From contig CAKKRK010000051.1 in assembly GCA_919902665.1 (NCBI GenBank), positions 1 to 50,767 on the forward strand: 50,767 nucleotides of DNA. Reading direction: 5' to 3'. This stretch comes from Nitrospiraceae bacterium. GTDB taxonomy: Bacteria; Nitrospirota; Nitrospiria; Nitrospirales; Nitrospiraceae. Made by a program: the position numbers and the translations under genes. This document shows, in pieces, positions 18,647 through 27,014 of the stretch. A model generated the notes under the pieces. It did not search any database. It had not been told where the DNA came from and saw only the letters and a list, made by a program, of their open reading frames with translations. How positions within the stretch are numbered: position 1 is the first letter of the stretch; each line of letters starts with the position of its first letter.

Positions 18647-18844
18647 TTAGACCGGCTTCTCCGAGATATACTCGATGTATTTCCAGAACTGCTTAGCGTC
18701 CTCCTCGTTCAAGACCACCGGAGTATTGTTGGCGGTCCCTGTCATATAGATCTTGACCGAGACGGTATCATGCCAAATCTGCACCTCACAGTGAGAGATC
18801 AGATCCAGGTTGAACGCATGGTTGCCTATTCGGACAAAGTGCAT
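18647..18844 (-). CDS. Small conserved hypothetical protein (65 residues)
   Basis: A 65-residue acidic protein with a good AGAGGAAA ribosome-binding site and protein-like composition (HFVRIGNHAFNLDLISHCEV, then VVLNEEDAKQFWKYIEYI). The start resembles small single-domain proteins that record a residue-level sheet followed by a helix, but I cannot name a family. It stands alone between the lipoprotein gene and the divergent stator-like gene pair, with 279 bp of non-coding DNA before the latter. No membrane segment is visible. Confidence 0.6.
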   Translation of the reverse strand: MHFVRIGNHAFNLDLISHCEVQIWHDTVSVKIYMTGTANNTPVVLNEEDAKQFWKYIEYISEKPV

Positions 18845-19123
18845 AGCGTTTCCTCTTTCTGGTTGTCAACGAAGGGTGAGCATACACCAAGTTCTCACAC
18901 CTCAAAAGCAACGGAGAGTTTTGTTGAGGTAGCTGTGCATCCGTGAGCCCTACAGAACTTGCCGCCCTCTCGGCAAAAACTTCCCTCCTGTTATGACGTT
19001 ATTTCAACCGTGCAGGGATACACGGCCATTTCTCGCATTTCTCTCTGGCACAGAAGTTGAGGGTGACATTCTAGTTTTTCTCTTACTGAAAATGGTGTGT
19101 AGGGCTCCAGTGAGGTTTGCCTG

Positions 19124-20335
19124 ATGAATGACGTGGATTCAATCACCGCTCTTTGGGAATGGCTCACTCGTGATGTCACGGTTGTTGGTGGGCTCCAGAG
19201 TCCTGCGCTTAGCTGGATCGGTGCTGCGGGGATCTTGACCCTGTGTTTCTGGCATAGCGCAGTGCTCCTCAGGGGTTTGTTACAAATCCAAGGGACGCTT
19301 GCGCGCTTTCACTCGTCTGTCGCGCCTCTGGTGCTGGCACGGCAACAGGTGTCCAAAGATTGGCTGGTTATTCCAGCGTTGGCAAAAAAACGAGCGCGTC
19401 TTGATGTGTCGTCAGAAACGCGACGCGATCTTGACGATCTGCACACATTGGATCAGGCGGTACGGTCGGAACAGGACTTTGCCAGAGACTGGTTTTCATA
19501 CCGTAAGACCCTCGCGGTAGAGCAATCCGCCTGGTTTCTTGAGCCGACCGTCCATAGTCAGCGTTCCGCAAGTGAGTTTTTCTCGTTCGAATCTCTCTGC
19601 GCCGCTCATCTCAACGTCCGATTTTATCGGCAACTTCCCGCCTTCATGACGGGCATGGGGTTGATGTTCACCTTCCTCGCCATCTTGATTGGCCTCAGCA
19701 AGCTCCATGCGAACGGGTCGGAGATCGATGGCATCCAAGGACTGATCAACGGCCTCTCTGGAAAGTTTGTGACATCCATCGTCGGCTTGGCGTGCGCCAA
19801 TGCGTTCACCCTCCTCGAACATTCTTTCTGGCATCGGTTGGACAACCGACACCGGGAGTGCATCTCCCTCCTGGACGAAATGTTTCCGCAGAGGGCTACA
19901 GACCAACCTTCCCAGGGGGCCCCATCATCGAACGGATCTCCGGTGGCCATTGCCACTCCGATCCGAAACGACACCGCACATCAGCTTGTCGAGGCCGTGC
20001 AGCAGCGCCTCGGGTCCACCGTCGCAGCGCTGAACTCAGCCGCGCAGGCGATCACGGCGCTACAATCCAAGCATGCACCAATGAAGTTTGATGCTTTGCC
20101 AGCGGAGATTGGTCACGAGGTTCAGCGGGCGTTACGACCCATGTTGAATCCCATACTGGACGCTATTCAAGACCTCAACCGTTCGATGAAGGAGCATGTC
20201 TCCCCGGTGCGGCTGTCTCAAGCCGAGATCGAAGCAATGTTTCAGGATCTCAGGAGCACCACTGCCGCAACGACAGAACCTGCACGTCCGATCCATAAAG
20301 ATCGCAATTCAGGAAAACCATCTCGTCTAACTTGA
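19124..20335 (+). CDS. MotA/TolQ/ExbB-type stator subunit, ZorA-like
   Basis: A 403-residue inner-membrane protein. Three hydrophobic helices are visible at about residues 30-52, 171-192 and 207-231; the last two, LPAFMTGMGLMFTFLAILIG and GLSGKFVTSIVGLACANAF, carry the proton-channel signature shared by MotA, TolQ and ZorA. Between helices 1 and 2 is a charged cytosolic stretch, and after residue 245 comes a long soluble tail predicted mostly helical. A ZorA-like tail would extend into the cytosol. It is followed after 24 bp by a MotB/OmpA-like gene. Usual Zorya genes ZorC, ZorD and ZorE are absent. It should use ion flow to drive movement; the target is unknown. Confidence 0.75.
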   Translation: MNDVDSITALWEWLTRDVTVVGGLQSPALSWIGAAGILTLCFWHSAVLLRGLLQIQGTLARFHSSVAPLVLARQQVSKDWLVIPALAKKRARLDVSSETRRDLDDLHTLDQAVRSEQDFARDWFSYRKTLAVEQSAWFLEPTVHSQRSASEFFSFESLCAAHLNVRFYRQLPAFMTGMGLMFTFLAILIGLSKLHANGSEIDGIQGLINGLSGKFVTSIVGLACANAFTLLEHSFWHRLDNRHRECISLLDEMFPQRATDQPSQGAPSSNGSPVAIATPIRNDTAHQLVEAVQQRLGSTVAALNSAAQAITALQSKHAPMKFDALPAEIGHEVQRALRPMLNPILDAIQDLNRSMKEHVSPVRLSQAEIEAMFQDLRSTTAATTEPARPIHKDRNSGKPSRLT

Positions 20336-20359
20336 ACCGGCACGGAGAGAGCAAAAGGG

Positions 20360-20992
20360 ATGAAGTCGAGCTTTACACAGGACTCGCGTGACAACTCAGC
20401 GGTGGTGACGAGTGGGGTTGCCGATCTTATGACCTCACTCGCCGTTATCTTCATTCTCTTGCTCGTGGCTTACATGACTCGCGTCGAGGATGGAAATGCC
20501 AATCCGGCCAGGAGCAGTGGTACTCCAACGGACAGCACACCGAGAATCGATCCACCTCATCCAGCACTGGAAACCAAAATGCCAAGCACTCACACGATTA
20601 CGGTGCCGGATGCCGCGATTAATTTTGAGTTTGGGAAAAGCACGTTGCTCCCGACGGCCGAGATCTTCTTGTCCGAGACCATGCCACACTACGCCTCACT
20701 TGTCTGCACGCCTGGAGAGCAAGAAGTAGAAGCCTTTGTGATCGAGGGATACACCGATGATCTGGGTGACGATATACGCAATCTGAGACTCAGTCAGGAA
20801 CGCTCTTTTGCGGTGCTGGCCAAAAGCTTGGAAGTGATCCGGGAGAAGCTTCCCTGGGCCTACGAGTGCTTCCTGCAAAAGTCGACCGCGAATGGACGTG
20901 GGAGGCAGGATCTTTTACGGAATGAGATAGGGCAACCAGCCCGCGAAAAAAGCCGCCGCGTCATGTTCAAAATCCACATGCGCCCCATGTAG
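20360..20992 (+). CDS. MotB/OmpA-type stator subunit, ZorB-like
   Basis: A 210-residue protein with one N-terminal membrane helix (about residues 20-40). Asp22 at its start, in VADLMTSLAVIFILLL, is the position of the proton-carrying Asp of MotB and ZorB. The C-terminal half is an OmpA-like peptidoglycan-binding domain (INFEFGKSTLLPTA, then GYTDDLGDDIRNLRLSQERS and EKSRRVMFKI). An AAAAGGG ribosome-binding site precedes the ATG. With the upstream ZorA-like protein it should form a stator anchored to the cell wall. The pair could be a Zorya remnant or an independent envelope motor. Confidence 0.8.
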   Translation: MKSSFTQDSRDNSAVVTSGVADLMTSLAVIFILLLVAYMTRVEDGNANPARSSGTPTDSTPRIDPPHPALETKMPSTHTITVPDAAINFEFGKSTLLPTAEIFLSETMPHYASLVCTPGEQEVEAFVIEGYTDDLGDDIRNLRLSQERSFAVLAKSLEVIREKLPWAYECFLQKSTANGRGRQDLLRNEIGQPAREKSRRVMFKIHMRPM

Positions 20993-21112: not shown

Positions 21113-21910
21113 TCATCCATAAATGCGGCGGGTCAGTTCGATAAACTTCTCGATGGAAAGGATTTCCGCACGGAGAGAAGGCGAGAGCGCAAGCGCTTCC
21201 AACGCAGCTGCCACTAGCTTCTGGTCATACCCCTGATCTTTCAGTGAATTGATGAGTGTCTTGCGGCGGTGGGCGAAGGCAGCTTTCACCAGTGCTGCGA
21301 ATTTGGCTTCTTTCTCCTGGTTCAGTGCTCTCTGAGGCTTGGTCTTGAGCAGAACCACAGCAGAGCCGACTTGCGGTCGTGGTCGGAAGCACTGGGCAGA
21401 GACTCGGAACGCTTTCGTGATCTCTGCCGCATATTGTGCCATGACGGAGAGGACTCCGTAGTCCGAACTTCCAGGCTTGGCCACGAGCCGATCAGCCACT
21501 TCATCTTGCAGCATCAGCACCATGCGGGGAAAATGGTCGCGCTGATCGAGAAGTCGGAAGAGGAGGGGAGTGGATAAATAATAGGGAAGATTGGCGACGA
21601 CAATGGTGCCGATCGGAAGCTGCTCGACCGGGTAGGTCATCGCATCGTCGAGGACGAGCGTGAGATTGGAAAACTGGGGCTGTCGTTCAGTTAGGAACGC
21701 ATGGAGCCGAGGATCGACTTCGATTGCCGTCACGTGGCCACTCGCACGACACAGCGCTTCGGTGAGGATGCCTCGGCCTGGCCCGATTTCCAAAACGGTA
21801 TCAGTCGGGGTGAGTTCAGCCAGCGCGACGATTTTGCGAACAATGTTGGGGTCGATGAGAAAGTTCTGCCCAAGGCGCTTGATCGCGGCAGGGGGAAGAG
21901 AGGAGTCCAC
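21113..21910 (-). CDS. rsmA: 16S rRNA dimethyladenosine transferase
   Basis: RsmA (KsgA) dimethylates two adjacent adenines near the 3' end of 16S rRNA with S-adenosylmethionine. Motif I LEIGPGRGILTEAL, the acidic VTAIEVDPRL and the catalytic NLPYYLSTPLLF are intact, as is the C-terminal RRKTLINSL. I place the start at a GTG (21910) with GGAG upstream: this gives 265 residues, the usual length, and starts 2 bp after the previous gene ends. An ATG at 21979 would add 23 unsupported residues and overlap that gene by 67 bp. Confidence 0.93.
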   Translation of the reverse strand: MDSSLPPAAIKRLGQNFLIDPNIVRKIVALAELTPTDTVLEIGPGRGILTEALCRASGHVTAIEVDPRLHAFLTERQPQFSNLTLVLDDAMTYPVEQLPIGTIVVANLPYYLSTPLLFRLLDQRDHFPRMVLMLQDEVADRLVAKPGSSDYGVLSVMAQYAAEITKAFRVSAQCFRPRPQVGSAVVLLKTKPQRALNQEKEAKFAALVKAAFAHRRKTLINSLKDQGYDQKLVAAALEALALSPSLRAEILSIEKFIELTRRIYG

Positions 21911-21912
21911 AC

Positions 21913-22230
21913 TCAGCTCCGAGTTGGTGGAGCCTGGGCCAATTGCTTGGCCAATATGCTCAGGGGCGTGCGATAGCACTCCACAAGATCCGTAAACTCT
22001 TCAACCAAATCATGAGTAAAAGATGGCCCTGGTTGGACGCTCGCGAAGATTTGTCCTTCCCGATCGCCTACGTTATTGGTGAGAAATGTGACCGTGCGGG
22101 CTTTCCATTTTGCTATTCGTTCCGTCCCGGCGACGGTGTTCAGGTCTTGAAGGGTCTGTTTCTCAAGTGTCTCCAATTCGTCAATCTGACGCTGAACCAC
22201 GGCAAGGCCCTTCGAAATATCAAGCGACAT
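21913..22230 (-). CDS. Small hypothetical protein between pdxA and rsmA
   Basis: A 105-residue protein, placed to start at 22230 (MSLDISKGLAVV). It is predicted to be helical, with a coiled-coil-like stretch (VVQRQIDELETLEKQTLQDL), and has no signal or membrane helix. It overlaps the 3' end of pdxA by 11 bp and ends 2 bp before the preferred rsmA start, so it looks like a translationally coupled member of this cluster. I do not recognise a family. Confidence 0.65.
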   Translation of the reverse strand: MSLDISKGLAVVQRQIDELETLEKQTLQDLNTVAGTERIAKWKARTVTFLTNNVGDREGQIFASVQPGPSFTHDLVEEFTDLVECYRTPLSILAKQLAQAPPTRS

Positions 22231-23302: not shown

Positions 23303-24293
23303 AGAGATGCACCGTATAGCCGATATAGAACGCCGCCCCGGCGGCGAGTAGCCAGGGTCGCCACCGACCTCCGATCAGAATTTGCAGGAGGCAGAGTCCT
23401 ACCGCCTGCACGGCTAAGATCATGGTGGTCAATGCCGATGATGCAATGACCCACTCGGTTCCGATCAACCCCAGTGCAACCGGGAAGGTGCCCTGAAAGA
23501 CCATGGCGCCCGTAACATTGGCCACGGCGAGCCGGTCTTTCTTGCGATAGAGCCAGAGAAAGCTATTGGACATCTCGGGTAGCTCGGTGGCGAGCGGCGC
23601 GATGAGGAGCGCTAAAATCAACGGCGACATGGCGAACAAGCCGGCCATCGATTCTGCAGCCATGACAAAAAGATGGGCGCCTAATATCAATCCCCCTAAC
23701 CCCAAGAATGATTGAAATCCGATCATCGCATAGGACGGCGTGGTTGCGTGCTTGTCGAAAATCAGTGGTTCCAGCTCACCACCTTCTTCCCCATCAGCCG
23801 GTGCAAATTTGAGCTTCATGTAGTAAATATACAAACAGACCAATACACCAGCTGCGATGAAGTGAATCAGTTTGGACGGCACGAATGCGCATCCCAAGGC
23901 GATAAAATAGCCGATCATAAAAAACGTGAGGTCTGTCAGCACTTCATGATAGTTGAGATGAAATTTGGCAGTCCGCTTGCCAGCCCGGGCATAGAGCAGC
24001 AGAAGAATCGCCAGAATGGGGAGCACCAGTGTGCTGAGCATGAACGGGGCGCCTAAGATGGCACCTAAGCCAACCTCAACCTCTTCATGGCTATCGCCGA
24101 AGAAAATCGCAATGATCGGGATCGAGGTTTCAGGCAGGGTCGTGCCGATGGCGGCAAAGACACTGCCGACGGCACCCTCGGAGATACCCCGCCGCTTGCC
24201 AAACCATTCAATGGCGTTCGTAAAGAGTGCGCAACCACCAAGTGTGACCGCGACGGAAACGAGAAAGAGGAGCACGTAGTACAGCACGGTCAT
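23292..24293 (-). CDS. Calcium/cation antiporter (NCX family)
   Basis: A 333-residue inner-membrane protein with about ten helices in two inverted halves. The two alpha-repeat signatures are visible as AAIGTTLPETSIP and LIAPLATELPEMSNS, where the Glu residues normally coordinate Ca2+ in CaCA-superfamily exchangers. An acidic loop (PADGEEGGELE) separates the halves. The family swaps Ca2+ (or another cation) for Na+ or H+. It overlaps larC by 4 bp and pdxA by 11 bp, so it is co-translated with a nickel-cofactor gene; whether this hints at another metal is unclear. Confidence 0.85.
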   Translation of the reverse strand: MTVLYYVLLFLVSVAVTLGGCALFTNAIEWFGKRRGISEGAVGSVFAAIGTTLPETSIPIIAIFFGDSHEEVEVGLGAILGAPFMLSTLVLPILAILLLLYARAGKRTAKFHLNYHEVLTDLTFFMIGYFIALGCAFVPSKLIHFIAAGVLVCLYIYYMKLKFAPADGEEGGELEPLIFDKHATTPSYAMIGFQSFLGLGGLILGAHLFVMAAESMAGLFAMSPLILALLIAPLATELPEMSNSFLWLYRKKDRLAVANVTGAMVFQGTFPVALGLIGTEWVIASSALTTMILAVQAVGLCLLQILIGGRWRPWLLAAGAAFYIGYTVHLYVN

Positions 24294-25507
24294 GCTCGGC
24301 CTCGCGCCGTTGGGATTCTCGTCTTTTTGCGTCCTCGTCGATAGGCCATCAGCGCGTCCTCCATAACCGTCTTGAGGGGGTAGCCGGTTCGTTGCGCAAT
24401 GGCTTTACAGTCCTCATATTCGGGGGCTGCTTTTTCCCATCCGGCGCCGACCTCGGCTACTTTCATACGAATGACTCCGCCTGGCGTCGTGACGGGGACG
24501 AATCGCCTGGTGAGGACCTGTCGGCGTACTTCATGAAGTCGCACTCCGAGCGTGGTCGTTTCCTGGAAGAGGACCTCAATCACGGCATCCTTCCGGTCTT
24601 CAGTAGCTAGGCAGCTCAGCAGAATTCCTGGCCGACTTTTCTTCATGACGACGGGAACCAGCACGACATCAACAGCACCGACCTGAAAGAGCTGCTCCAT
24701 GATGTATTCGTAGGTCTGTGGACTGATGTCGTCAAGATTCGTCTCAATCTGTATCATCGGCTCGGTCGGATTGGCCGCCGATGTGGACTCTTCCTCCACA
24801 AACAGGCGCAAGGCATTCGGCCATCCGTCTGGATCCTGGTCGCCGGCTCCGTAGCCCACGGCCATACTCTTCATGGTCGGCATCGGGCCGAATTCCGACG
24901 CCAATGTTCGAAGCAGCGCAACCCCGGTGGGGGTGGCAAGCTCACAACGCGGACCGTCGGCGTAGATCGGAATTCCCTTCGCCAGCGCCGCCACCGCAGG
25001 CCCTGGAACCGGTAAGAGTCCGTGTGAGGTTTGAATCGACCCGGCTCCAACATTGATCGGAGAGGCGGTGATTTGGGTGGCGTTCAAGAGATAGCACCCC
25101 AGCACGCCACCGACAACATCGATAAACGAATCCATCACTCCGACTTCATGAAAGTGAACATCTTTTGGATCGACACCATGCGCTACTCCTTCGGCCTCAG
25201 TCAGTCGATCAAAGACCAACCGGCTCCGTTCCTTGACTGGGCCTGGCAACGTGCTGTCGGCAAGGATCTTTCGAATGCGAGTAAGGGTCAGCGGCCGGTG
25301 AAACCCTTGTTGAACGATCACGTCGACCTTTATCGCCGGGAGTGCGCCACGATGTACCTCGCGCTTCCGCAATGTGTAGCCGGTAAGCTTGAGTCCTTTG
25401 AGGCCCTTGACCAAGTCAGTCCATGGTAACCCTGCGCTCACTAATGCGCCCAGGACCATATCTCCACTGACCCCGGAGAAACAATCGAAATGCAAATGAC
25501 GGCCCAT
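24290..25507 (-). CDS. larC: Nickel-pincer cofactor nickel insertase LarC
   Basis: A 405-residue LarC that inserts nickel into the pyridinium dithiocarboxylic acid mononucleotide to finish the nickel-pincer cofactor. The N-terminus HFDCFSGVSGDMVLGALVSA and the motif HFHEVGVMDSFIDVVG are diagnostic, and the C-terminal domain (IQIETNLDDISPQTYEYIMEQL) is complete, so it is one continuous frame and not the frameshift-type split seen in some lactobacilli. LarB is encoded about 0.7 kb further on. No LarA (lactate racemase) or LarE is in the window, so the client enzyme is unknown. Confidence 0.92.
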   Translation of the reverse strand: MGRHLHFDCFSGVSGDMVLGALVSAGLPWTDLVKGLKGLKLTGYTLRKREVHRGALPAIKVDVIVQQGFHRPLTLTRIRKILADSTLPGPVKERSRLVFDRLTEAEGVAHGVDPKDVHFHEVGVMDSFIDVVGGVLGCYLLNATQITASPINVGAGSIQTSHGLLPVPGPAVAALAKGIPIYADGPRCELATPTGVALLRTLASEFGPMPTMKSMAVGYGAGDQDPDGWPNALRLFVEEESTSAANPTEPMIQIETNLDDISPQTYEYIMEQLFQVGAVDVVLVPVVMKKSRPGILLSCLATEDRKDAVIEVLFQETTTLGVRLHEVRRQVLTRRFVPVTTPGGVIRMKVAEVGAGWEKAAPEYEDCKAIAQRTGYPLKTVMEDALMAYRRGRKKTRIPTARGRA

Positions 25508-25698
25508 TCAGTTCCTTACATGCGATGTGCAAAATGACCGGACATCTTACCGAAGGCGTGGACGAACGGCAATCGCTGGTTCATTCTCGACGCTTCGTTG
25601 ACAGCCTAGGGGTGCTATGGTATCCCCCTAAGAGTGCGGTTGAGTTGCATCGTGCCGAACACGACGCCTGTCACTCATGAAAGCATGGTTCAGGGTTT

Positions 25699-26229
25699 TT
25701 GTTGAAATTGTCACATACGCTCCATCACATGAGACGTCTGCTCGGGTTGCTCACCCTGTGTGCTTCTCTGATGGCCGTATTTCCGGCAGAGAGCCTCTCG
25801 AAAGAGAAGCCGCCCCGCGTTCCCAGGCCTGAGCCTCAGCTCAAAATTGTCGGCCTTAACATTGCCCCGACACCGTATGCGCTGGGCAACGGGCCTCTTC
25901 AGTTTTCCGTTACAGTCCAGCTTCCGAAAGAAGTGGATGGATCCACGATTTTGGAGGTGACCTCGCTCATTAGTTCTCCGTCGAAGAGCTCGCTTCGATT
26001 TCTCACGTATCGACAGCCCATCCAAGTCCCTCCAGCCGTGGATGGGGAGACAGGGCGATCGAAGGTGTCCGTCGAACTTGCGTGGGATGGCCAGGATCAC
26101 CGAAAGCAACTCGCCGGGGTGGGCATGTATTCGTATGAAGTGCGGACAAAGTTGTTGGCCAATGGAGAAAAAGGGTTACGCACCGTGATGGTTGCCTGGC
26201 CAAAGCGAGGCTTACTGGAAGTGAAATAG
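25699..26229 (+). CDS. Secreted hypothetical protein
   Basis: A 176-residue protein with a signal peptide (MRRLLGLLTLCASLMAVFPAES) and a mature part rich in beta-strand-forming residues, ending in a domain that reads like an Ig/carbohydrate-binding-type sandwich (ELAWDGQDHRKQLAGVGMYS, EVRTKLLANGEKG). I recognise no named family. The start is uncertain: a TTG at 25699 follows a weak AGGG, while an ATG at 25729 gives the cleanest signal peptide. It lies alone, divergent from larC and convergent with larB. Confidence 0.65.
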   Translation: MLKLSHTLHHMRRLLGLLTLCASLMAVFPAESLSKEKPPRVPRPEPQLKIVGLNIAPTPYALGNGPLQFSVTVQLPKEVDGSTILEVTSLISSPSKSSLRFLTYRQPIQVPPAVDGETGRSKVSVELAWDGQDHRKQLAGVGMYSYEVRTKLLANGEKGLRTVMVAWPKRGLLEVK

Positions 26230-26254
26230 AGGCGCATTCATTTCTTCCGCGCCT
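26230..26254 (+). terminator. Terminator-like hairpin
   Basis: AGGCGC (26230-26235) and GCGCCT (26249-26254) form a 6-bp GC-rich stem with a 13-base loop, followed by ATTTCTCT on the plus strand. It directly follows the stop of the secreted protein gene and overlaps the larB stop codon, so it may end both convergent units. Confidence 0.45.
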
Positions 26255-27014
26255 ATTTCTCTACTCCCAACATATTGATCCGATGTGCGAGGCAGGCCGC
26301 GCCGAATCCGTTGTCGATATTCATCACGCCTACACCCGCCGCGCAGGAATTGAGCATCGTCAGCAGCGCAGCGACTCCCCCGAAGCTCGCACCATAGCCT
26401 CGGCTGGTTGGCACGGCAATGACCGGGCAGTGGACCAACCCTCCCACCACGCTCGGCAGGACACCGTCCATACCAGCTGCGACGATCACGACCTTCGCAT
26501 CGAACAGCCGATCTCTCTTTCCGAGCAGTCGATGGATACCTGCAACCCCGACATCGTACAGTCGCTCGACGTGGCTACCCATCACTTCAGCCGTCACACG
26601 AGCTTCTTCCGCCACAGGCACGTCCGCCGTTCCCGCGGTCACTACGAGTATATGCCCATGTTGTTTCTGCTTGGAAGCGTGAATCGCCACCAGGCGTGCA
26701 TCGGGATAGTACTGTGCTCGCCGATCCAGGCGGCGAATGGCTCGCCCAACCGATGGGTCGGCACGAGTGGCAAGAAACGGGCCCTGTTTCTTGATGAGCG
26801 CCCGAGCGATGGCGATAATCTGCGCGGTGGTTTTCCCTTCACACAGGATGACCTCGGGGAACCCTTGTCGTAATGACCGATGATGATCGACTGAGGCAAA
26901 GCCAAGATCCTCAAAAGGCAGTGACCGTAGGCGTTGAAGTGCCTGTTCCACCGTGGCATCGCCTTGACGGACCTGCTGCAACAGTCGTTCGAGTCCTTCC
27001 GGATTCATGTCCAC
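26253..27014 (-). CDS. larB: Nickel-pincer cofactor carboxylase LarB
   Basis: A 253-residue LarB that carboxylates and hydrolyses nicotinic acid adenine dinucleotide in the first step of nickel-pincer cofactor synthesis. Its C-terminal half is PurE-like (VVTAGTADVPVAEEARVTAE, AAGMDGVLPSVVGGLV, VPTSRGYGASFGGV), and the N-terminal helical region with FPEVILCEGKT is typical. It overlaps gpsA by 10 bp, so the two are coupled. With larC nearby it shows that the organism makes this cofactor, assuming LarE is encoded elsewhere. Confidence 0.92.
   Translation of the reverse strand: MDMNPEGLERLLQQVRQGDATVEQALQRLRSLPFEDLGFASVDHHRSLRQGFPEVILCEGKTTAQIIAIARALIKKQGPFLATRADPSVGRAIRRLDRRAQYYPDARLVAIHASKQKQHGHILVVTAGTADVPVAEEARVTAEVMGSHVERLYDVGVAGIHRLLGKRDRLFDAKVVIVAAGMDGVLPSVVGGLVHCPVIAVPTSRGYGASFGGVAALLTMLNSCAAGVGVMNIDNGFGAACLAHRINMLGVEK

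Follow-up and report, generated by a model that had tools for sequence, protein, structure and literature searches.

Zorya antiphage systems combine a membrane motor of ZorA and ZorB with cytosolic partners encoded beside it, namely, ZorC and ZorD in type I (ZorA1-ZorB1-ZorC-ZorD; PDB accession numbers 8QYD and 8VVN), ZorE in type II (ZorA2-ZorB2-ZorE; 8VVI), or ZorF and ZorG. In the known systems, ZorAB alone is reported to be insufficient for defense (PMC8565338). ZorA carries a long cytosolic tail, spanning residues 237 to 696 (∼460 amino acids) in type I and residues 110 to 378 (268 amino acids) in type II; its deletion abolishes defense, for which binding to peptidoglycan is also required (PMC11890865). 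Here, we describe a ZorAB-like gene pair with a short tail and no adjacent effector in a 50,767-bp contig of a Nitrospiraceae bacterium (CAKKRK010000051.1 of assembly GCA_919902665.1, referred to as the window). Our best explanation, to which we assign a probability of about 55%, is that the pair encodes a stand-alone motor of the ZorAB kind that descended from Zorya and performs a nonimmune housekeeping role tied to a flagellated lifestyle.

Identity and anatomy of the ZorAB-like proteins

The zorA-like and zorB-like open reading frames (ORFs) are both carried on the plus strand and are separated by 24 bp. Their coordinates, the three helices of the first product (A protein), and the Asp22 helix and OmpA domain of the second (B protein) were recovered as given in the initial annotation. 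PADLOC matched the A protein to ZorA1 (E value, 3.6e−19) and the B protein to ZorB1 (E value, 2.4e−32). When family profiles were searched against PDB sequences, the A profile identified the ZorA of 8vvn (1.2e−16) and 8qyd (1e−12), with a weaker match to type II ZorA of 8VVI (1.9e−6), while the B profile matched the ZorB of 8vvi best (1.1e−17), followed by 8qyd (6.6e−15). ZorA models also ranked first for the A protein in NCBIfam, with a score far under the cut-off (45.8 versus 100 bits). No match to the Pfam MotA_ExbB family (PF01618) was found for the A protein; the same search identified three other proteins in the genome. Foldseek comparisons using the AlphaFold2 model of the A protein (mean predicted local distance difference test [pLDDT] score, 69) placed ZorA first (∼1e−7), TolQ/ExbB next (∼7e−3), and MotA last (∼0.1). 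The B protein had a Pfam OmpA match (1.6e−7), and fold matches to its model (pLDDT, 77) were OmpA domains and ZorB. Profile and fold checks therefore favor ZorAB over TolQR, ExbBD, and MotAB, the identity first suggested for the pair.

AlphaFold2 predicted long membrane-spanning helices at residues 28 to 77, 165 to 197, and 204 to 253 of the A protein and cytosolic helices at residues 283 to 316, 325 to 358, and 366 to 382, with ∼147 residues following the last membrane helix. By PADLOC, PDB profile, and fold, the A protein is thus a ZorA-type channel subunit, but without the long cytosolic tail of the defense systems. The B protein has a single N-terminal helix carrying Asp22 followed by the OmpA-like domain, and it therefore joins the channel aspartate to a peptidoglycan-binding domain as ZorB does. 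Asp22 of the B protein and Thr183 and Ser218 of the A protein align with ion-path residues of solved ZorAB structures, where the corresponding residues have been assigned this role (PMC11890865). The residues of the peptidoglycan site (TDD, NLxLSQxRS, and SRR) were kept across the family, and Tyr replaced His in the IEG[YH]TDD motif in part of one clade. Periplasmic cysteines 116 and 170 of the B protein were nearly invariant in the family alignment and may form a disulfide. Outside the clade of the window, the ZorA C terminus was rich in Trp and Arg/Lys (e.g., LRWFANWRQG) in loci L071 to L078, L081, L083, and L087, where it could possibly contact the membrane or a partner.

Distribution, genomic context, and selection

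Protein searches identified a ZorA match in 124 of 175 genomes of the family, usually as a single copy and mostly of 400 to 490 amino acids. After removal of two genomes with a long ZorA only, the short pair was present in 122. Across the phylum, 70 of 296 genomes gave a ZorA match; two related families, that of the window and a sister family in the same order, account for every one of them except a long ZorA found elsewhere, and it is within this phylum that restriction of the short pair to Nitrospirales was established. The ZorB profile matched 24 of 49 genomes of the sister family, including one weak outlier. A weak ZorB-like match (4.9e−17) was located at G357:C24:103419-104036, in a sister-family genus otherwise without the pair.

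The short pair occupied at least eight unrelated neighborhoods, such as those of rsmA/pdxA, proS with a T2SSE-type ATPase, PTPS with an FGE-sulfatase domain gene, and MacB/FtsX, and zorB was the sole recurring neighbor of zorA. In the loci examined, ZorB alone followed a short ZorA, ZorC and ZorD were never adjacent to close homologues, and no flagellar gene lay next to the pair; a TonB/TolA-like partner was not seen beside it in any context. In the window, genes for ZorC, ZorD, or ZorE and flagellar or tol genes were not seen near the pair, and PADLOC found no Zorya partner among the scanned neighbors, with ZorE, ZorF, and ZorG not searched genome-wide. The ZorC profile had no match in the window's own genome. 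The pair therefore lacks the adjacent cytosolic partner (ZorC with ZorD, ZorE, or ZorF with ZorG) of a Zorya system, and the absence of effectors and stand-alone arrangement first noted at this one locus hold wherever the pair was examined in Nitrospirales. The two refuting conditions of the initial annotation were checked, and neither was borne out. Searches of open-licence papers on orphan or solitary ZorAB or on Zorya in Nitrospira turned up no account of this pair. A 65-amino-acid ORF upstream of zorA, put forward in the initial annotation as a recurring partner, proved to occur only in one genus, in its clade with the rsmA/pdxA locus.

The ratio of nonsynonymous to synonymous substitution rates (dN/dS) was ∼0.05 to 0.11 for the ZorA core, with no core replacement at all in one very close pair, and 0.11 to 0.18 for ZorB. 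In the ZorA tail it was 0.22 to 0.40, and the neighbors rsmA and pdxA gave values of 0.11 to 0.21 and 0.08 to 0.16, respectively. The motor core is constrained as strongly as its housekeeping neighbors and the tail is free to vary. Overall, the short pair is intact, under purifying selection, widespread, and not decaying.

Relationship to complete Zorya systems

Complete Zorya I systems were also found in the group. A long ZorA (609 to 679 amino acids) was followed by ZorB, ZorC with its EH signature, and ZorD in loci L089, L096, L097, L098, L099, and L101. In L088, ZorD was present and no full-length ZorC ORF was called, yet the ZorC profile matched there. ZorC was found in 5 of the 175 family genomes, and three genomes (G100, G125, and G159) carried the short pair together with a full Zorya system. 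In a maximum likelihood tree of the ZorA core and ZorB, with canonical Zorya I as the outgroup, all short pairs formed one clade (ultrafast bootstrap, 94), which grouped with the full Zorya system of L096 (support, 100) and then with L088/L089. The L088/L089 and L096 systems diverge from canonical Zorya I. As the short clade is nested among full Zorya I systems, domestication through loss of ZorC and ZorD and shortening of the tail is the best reading of the tree. With the root assumed, the simplest account of these sequences would have the short pair derive from a complete Zorya system. A mobile plasmid origin was considered and rejected, the sole plasmid match being a full Zorya I.

The short pair and Zorya type I have in common the channel core, the ZorB aspartate helix and peptidoglycan-binding domain, and the A-B gene order. 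They differ in that the pair lacks ZorC and ZorD, has a tail of ∼147 rather than ∼460 amino acids, is near-core in Nitrospirales, where type I is rare, and is preceded by an element not seen before long zorA. With type II, the pair shares the channel core and ZorB architecture, but no adjacent nuclease gene was seen and the tail is again shorter (∼147 versus 268 amino acids).

Association with flagella

Using flhA as a marker for flagella, 113 of the 175 family genomes had both the pair and flhA, 9 the pair only, 16 flhA only, and 37 neither (Fisher's exact test, P = 5e−17). The association was also seen in the genus of the window (both, 66; pair only, 3; flhA only, 4; neither, 6) and in the sister family (22, 1, 8, and 18, respectively). 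The association held given genome size (likelihood ratio test, P = 3e−6, or P = 5e−5 with genomes of ≥90% completeness). Pagel-type tests used an rpoB tree covering 73 better genomes, from which the G014 rpoB was left out, and returned a P value of 8.5e−5 for the pair versus flhA. Thus, the pair is mostly retained where flagella are retained, though motAB is encoded separately. A link with nitrite oxidation was also considered and rejected; nxrB also occurs in subclades without the pair and does not track it.

Proposed function and alternatives

In the model that we favor, a type I-like Zorya ancestor would have lost its DNA-attacking partners ZorC and ZorD, along with about two-thirds of the ZorA tail, and the resulting two-gene unit would have become fixed in Nitrospirales chromosomes. 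Two ZorB helices would sit inside a ring of five ZorA subunits (5:2), and ion flow past Asp22 and the Thr/Ser ring would rotate ZorA about a peptidoglycan-anchored ZorB dimer. The short tail bundle may relay this motion to an unlinked partner, a few nanometers into the cytosol, or the motor may act on the envelope itself. We infer the 5:2 assembly, the rotation, the direction of evolution, and the nonimmune role from the comparisons above; a stand-alone envelope motor, one of two options in the initial annotation, would be the best functional guess. A more specific proposal, that these pairs form a distinct class of stand-alone, ion-driven motor domesticated from a phage-defense system, with a housekeeping and probably motility- or surface-related function and a promoter-proximal control element of its own in Nitrospirales, is put forward tentatively, as something short of an even chance.

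Several observations weigh against the favored model. No linked partner of the pair was found, and the root of the ZorAB tree is an assumption. ZorAB and rpoB distances agreed only partly (Mantel statistic, 0.27; 103 of 5,000 permutations), and some exchange between lineages is therefore likely, as is often the case for defense genes. The type IV pilus control pilQ was also weakly associated with the pair (Pagel-type test, P = 0.04), so that the association with flagella may in part reflect lifestyle or genome reduction. Finally, the pair occurs without flhA in G157 and G081, and flhA without the pair in G008, G111, G169, and G172; given exceptions in both directions, the pair is not a fixed flagellar part.

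The alternative to be taken most seriously, though in our judgment unlikely, is a reduced but working phage defense, in which the motor would sense the disturbance of the envelope at phage entry and either depolarize the cell itself or activate an unlinked effector. The nearest relatives of the pair are full Zorya I systems, the ion and peptidoglycan residues required for Zorya defense (PMC11890865) are retained, and the scattered losses of the pair and its partial disagreement with rpoB would also fit. Flagella can serve as phage receptors, which would account for the flagellar association under this alternative as well. However, the pair is near-core, single copy, and set in housekeeping surroundings rather than in defense islands, and ZorC is absent from 170 of the 175 genomes. 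The insufficiency of ZorAB alone and the loss of defense upon deletion of the ZorA tail in known systems also count against it.

That the pair serves the flagellar motor as an auxiliary stator or brake, working alongside MotAB, appears improbable. Such a role would agree with the presence of flhA in 93% (135/145) of pair-bearing genomes versus 30% (24/79) of pair-less genomes across both families and with the likeness of ZorB to MotB in combining a channel helix with an OmpA-like anchor; by analogy, the pair would share with MotAB/PomAB an overall 5:2 stator layout and anchoring to peptidoglycan. Unlike MotAB, however, the A protein lacks a MotA family match and its fold resembles that of MotA only weakly (E value, 0.1), and the genome encodes its own motAB in a flagellar cluster. 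Neither a MotA family profile match nor a flagellar gene context was found for the pair in the loci examined, and no copy of its upstream element was seen in the flagellar cluster. Moreover, there are flagellated genomes without the pair and two well-assembled genomes with the pair but no flhA.

Still less probable is a TolQR/ExbBD-type energizer of an outer membrane process with an unlinked partner, for which common superfamily membership, the three-helix A subunit, and the second-best fold matches to TolQ/ExbB could be cited. The OmpA-like domain on the B subunit is unlike the small ExbD/TolR-type subunit, TolQR-like and ExbBD-like sets are encoded separately in the genome, and no TolA- or TonB-like partner gene was seen as a neighbor. 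That the pair is a degenerating, functionless Zorya remnant, the other option in the initial annotation, is hardly credible despite its missing partners and short, less constrained tail (dN/dS, 0.22 to 0.40), given reading frames intact in nearly all genomes, low core dN/dS, invariant functional residues, a conserved upstream element, and long retention.

Upstream element and features of the locus

A 15-bp element lies upstream of zorA (Table 1), with a consensus of TGGCAYRRAAGTTGA before short zorA genes. The pattern YGGCAYRNAANTTGA occurred only once in the 3.56-Mb genome of the window. In most of the rsmA/pdxA clade, the element was found ∼42 to 80 nucleotides before the called zorA start, with varied distances elsewhere. 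A matrix derived from this clade alone was tested upstream of zorA in other lineages against 436 control regions; in most of these lineages the region upstream of short zorA outscored nearly all of the controls. The element was weak or absent in L071, L072, L076, L079, L103, L107, and L108, and the matrix scan did not find it upstream of long zorA.

The element has a sigma54-like TGGC-N7-TTGA spacing, but a flagellar sigma54 promoter was rejected, as the expected final C is lacking: across 65 sites the last position was A in 61, G in 4, and never C, whereas the flagellar sigma54-like sites of the same genome, preceding the genes at 68015 and 79335 in the G000:C20 cluster, end in TTGC. Nor was the element found in the flagellar cluster of this genome. 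A regulon motif was rejected on the basis of the single match in this genome and at most two in each of six relatives, and a leader peptide was rejected since length differences just upstream break the reading frame. Rfam returned no match in the zorA leader. The inverted repeat further upstream is a possible operator.

Table 1. Features of the zorAB-like locus in the window
Feature	Position	Strand	Remarks
Inverted repeat TTGCCG-N6-CGGCAA	18959..18976	.	Upstream of zorA; mostly conserved among related genomes with this locus
15-bp upstream element TGGCACAGAAGTTGA	19046..19060	+	78 nucleotides 5′ of the zorA ATG; sole genome match to the pattern
zorA-like gene	19124..20335	+	403 amino acids; three-helix ion-channel/stator subunit with short helical cytosolic tail
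Thr183 codon, channel-ring residue	19670..19672	+	Invariant in 49 orthologues; aligns with E. coli ZorA Thr147 (8qyd)
Ser218 codon, channel-ring residue	19775..19777	+	Invariant in 49 orthologues; aligns with E. coli ZorA Ser184 (8qyd)
Cytosolic tail helices, residues 283 to 382	19970..20269	+	Heptad-spaced Leu296/303/310
zorB-like gene	20360..20992	+	210 amino acids; MotB-type helix and peptidoglycan-binding OmpA-like domain
Asp22 codon, ion-binding aspartate	20423..20425	+	Invariant in 52 sequences; equivalent to ZorB Asp21/24/26; aligns with ZorB of 8qyd, 8vvi, and 8vvn
Periplasmic OmpA-like peptidoglycan-binding domain, residues 76 to 207	20585..20980	+	Conserved TDD, NLxLSQxRS, GRG, and SRR

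The pair is flanked by the 65-amino-acid ORF (18647 to 18844) and rsmA (21113 to 21979), both on the opposite strand, and is therefore a self-contained transcription unit. Pfam agreed with the rsmA and pdxA identities first given to the flanking genes. The flagellar motAB and the TolQR-like and ExbBD-like sets of this genome are each on other contigs, and a large flagellar and chemotaxis cluster, including flhA and motAB, was located at G000:C20:55000-134999 (L216 to L219). Elsewhere in the window (24293 to 27014, minus strand), a nickel-insertion (LarC-like) gene lies near a gene with an AIR-carboxylase domain (LarB-like).

Implications

How the Zorya motor relays the sensing of phage to its effectors is understood only in part. 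If the favored model is true, a naturally occurring, selected ZorAB that lacks effectors and has a very short tail would allow the motor's own action to be told apart from that of the effectors. It would also represent an immune machine turned into a housekeeping motor in a globally important group of nitrifiers. The pair is also a warning that ZorA and ZorB matches in genome surveys need not indicate phage defense.
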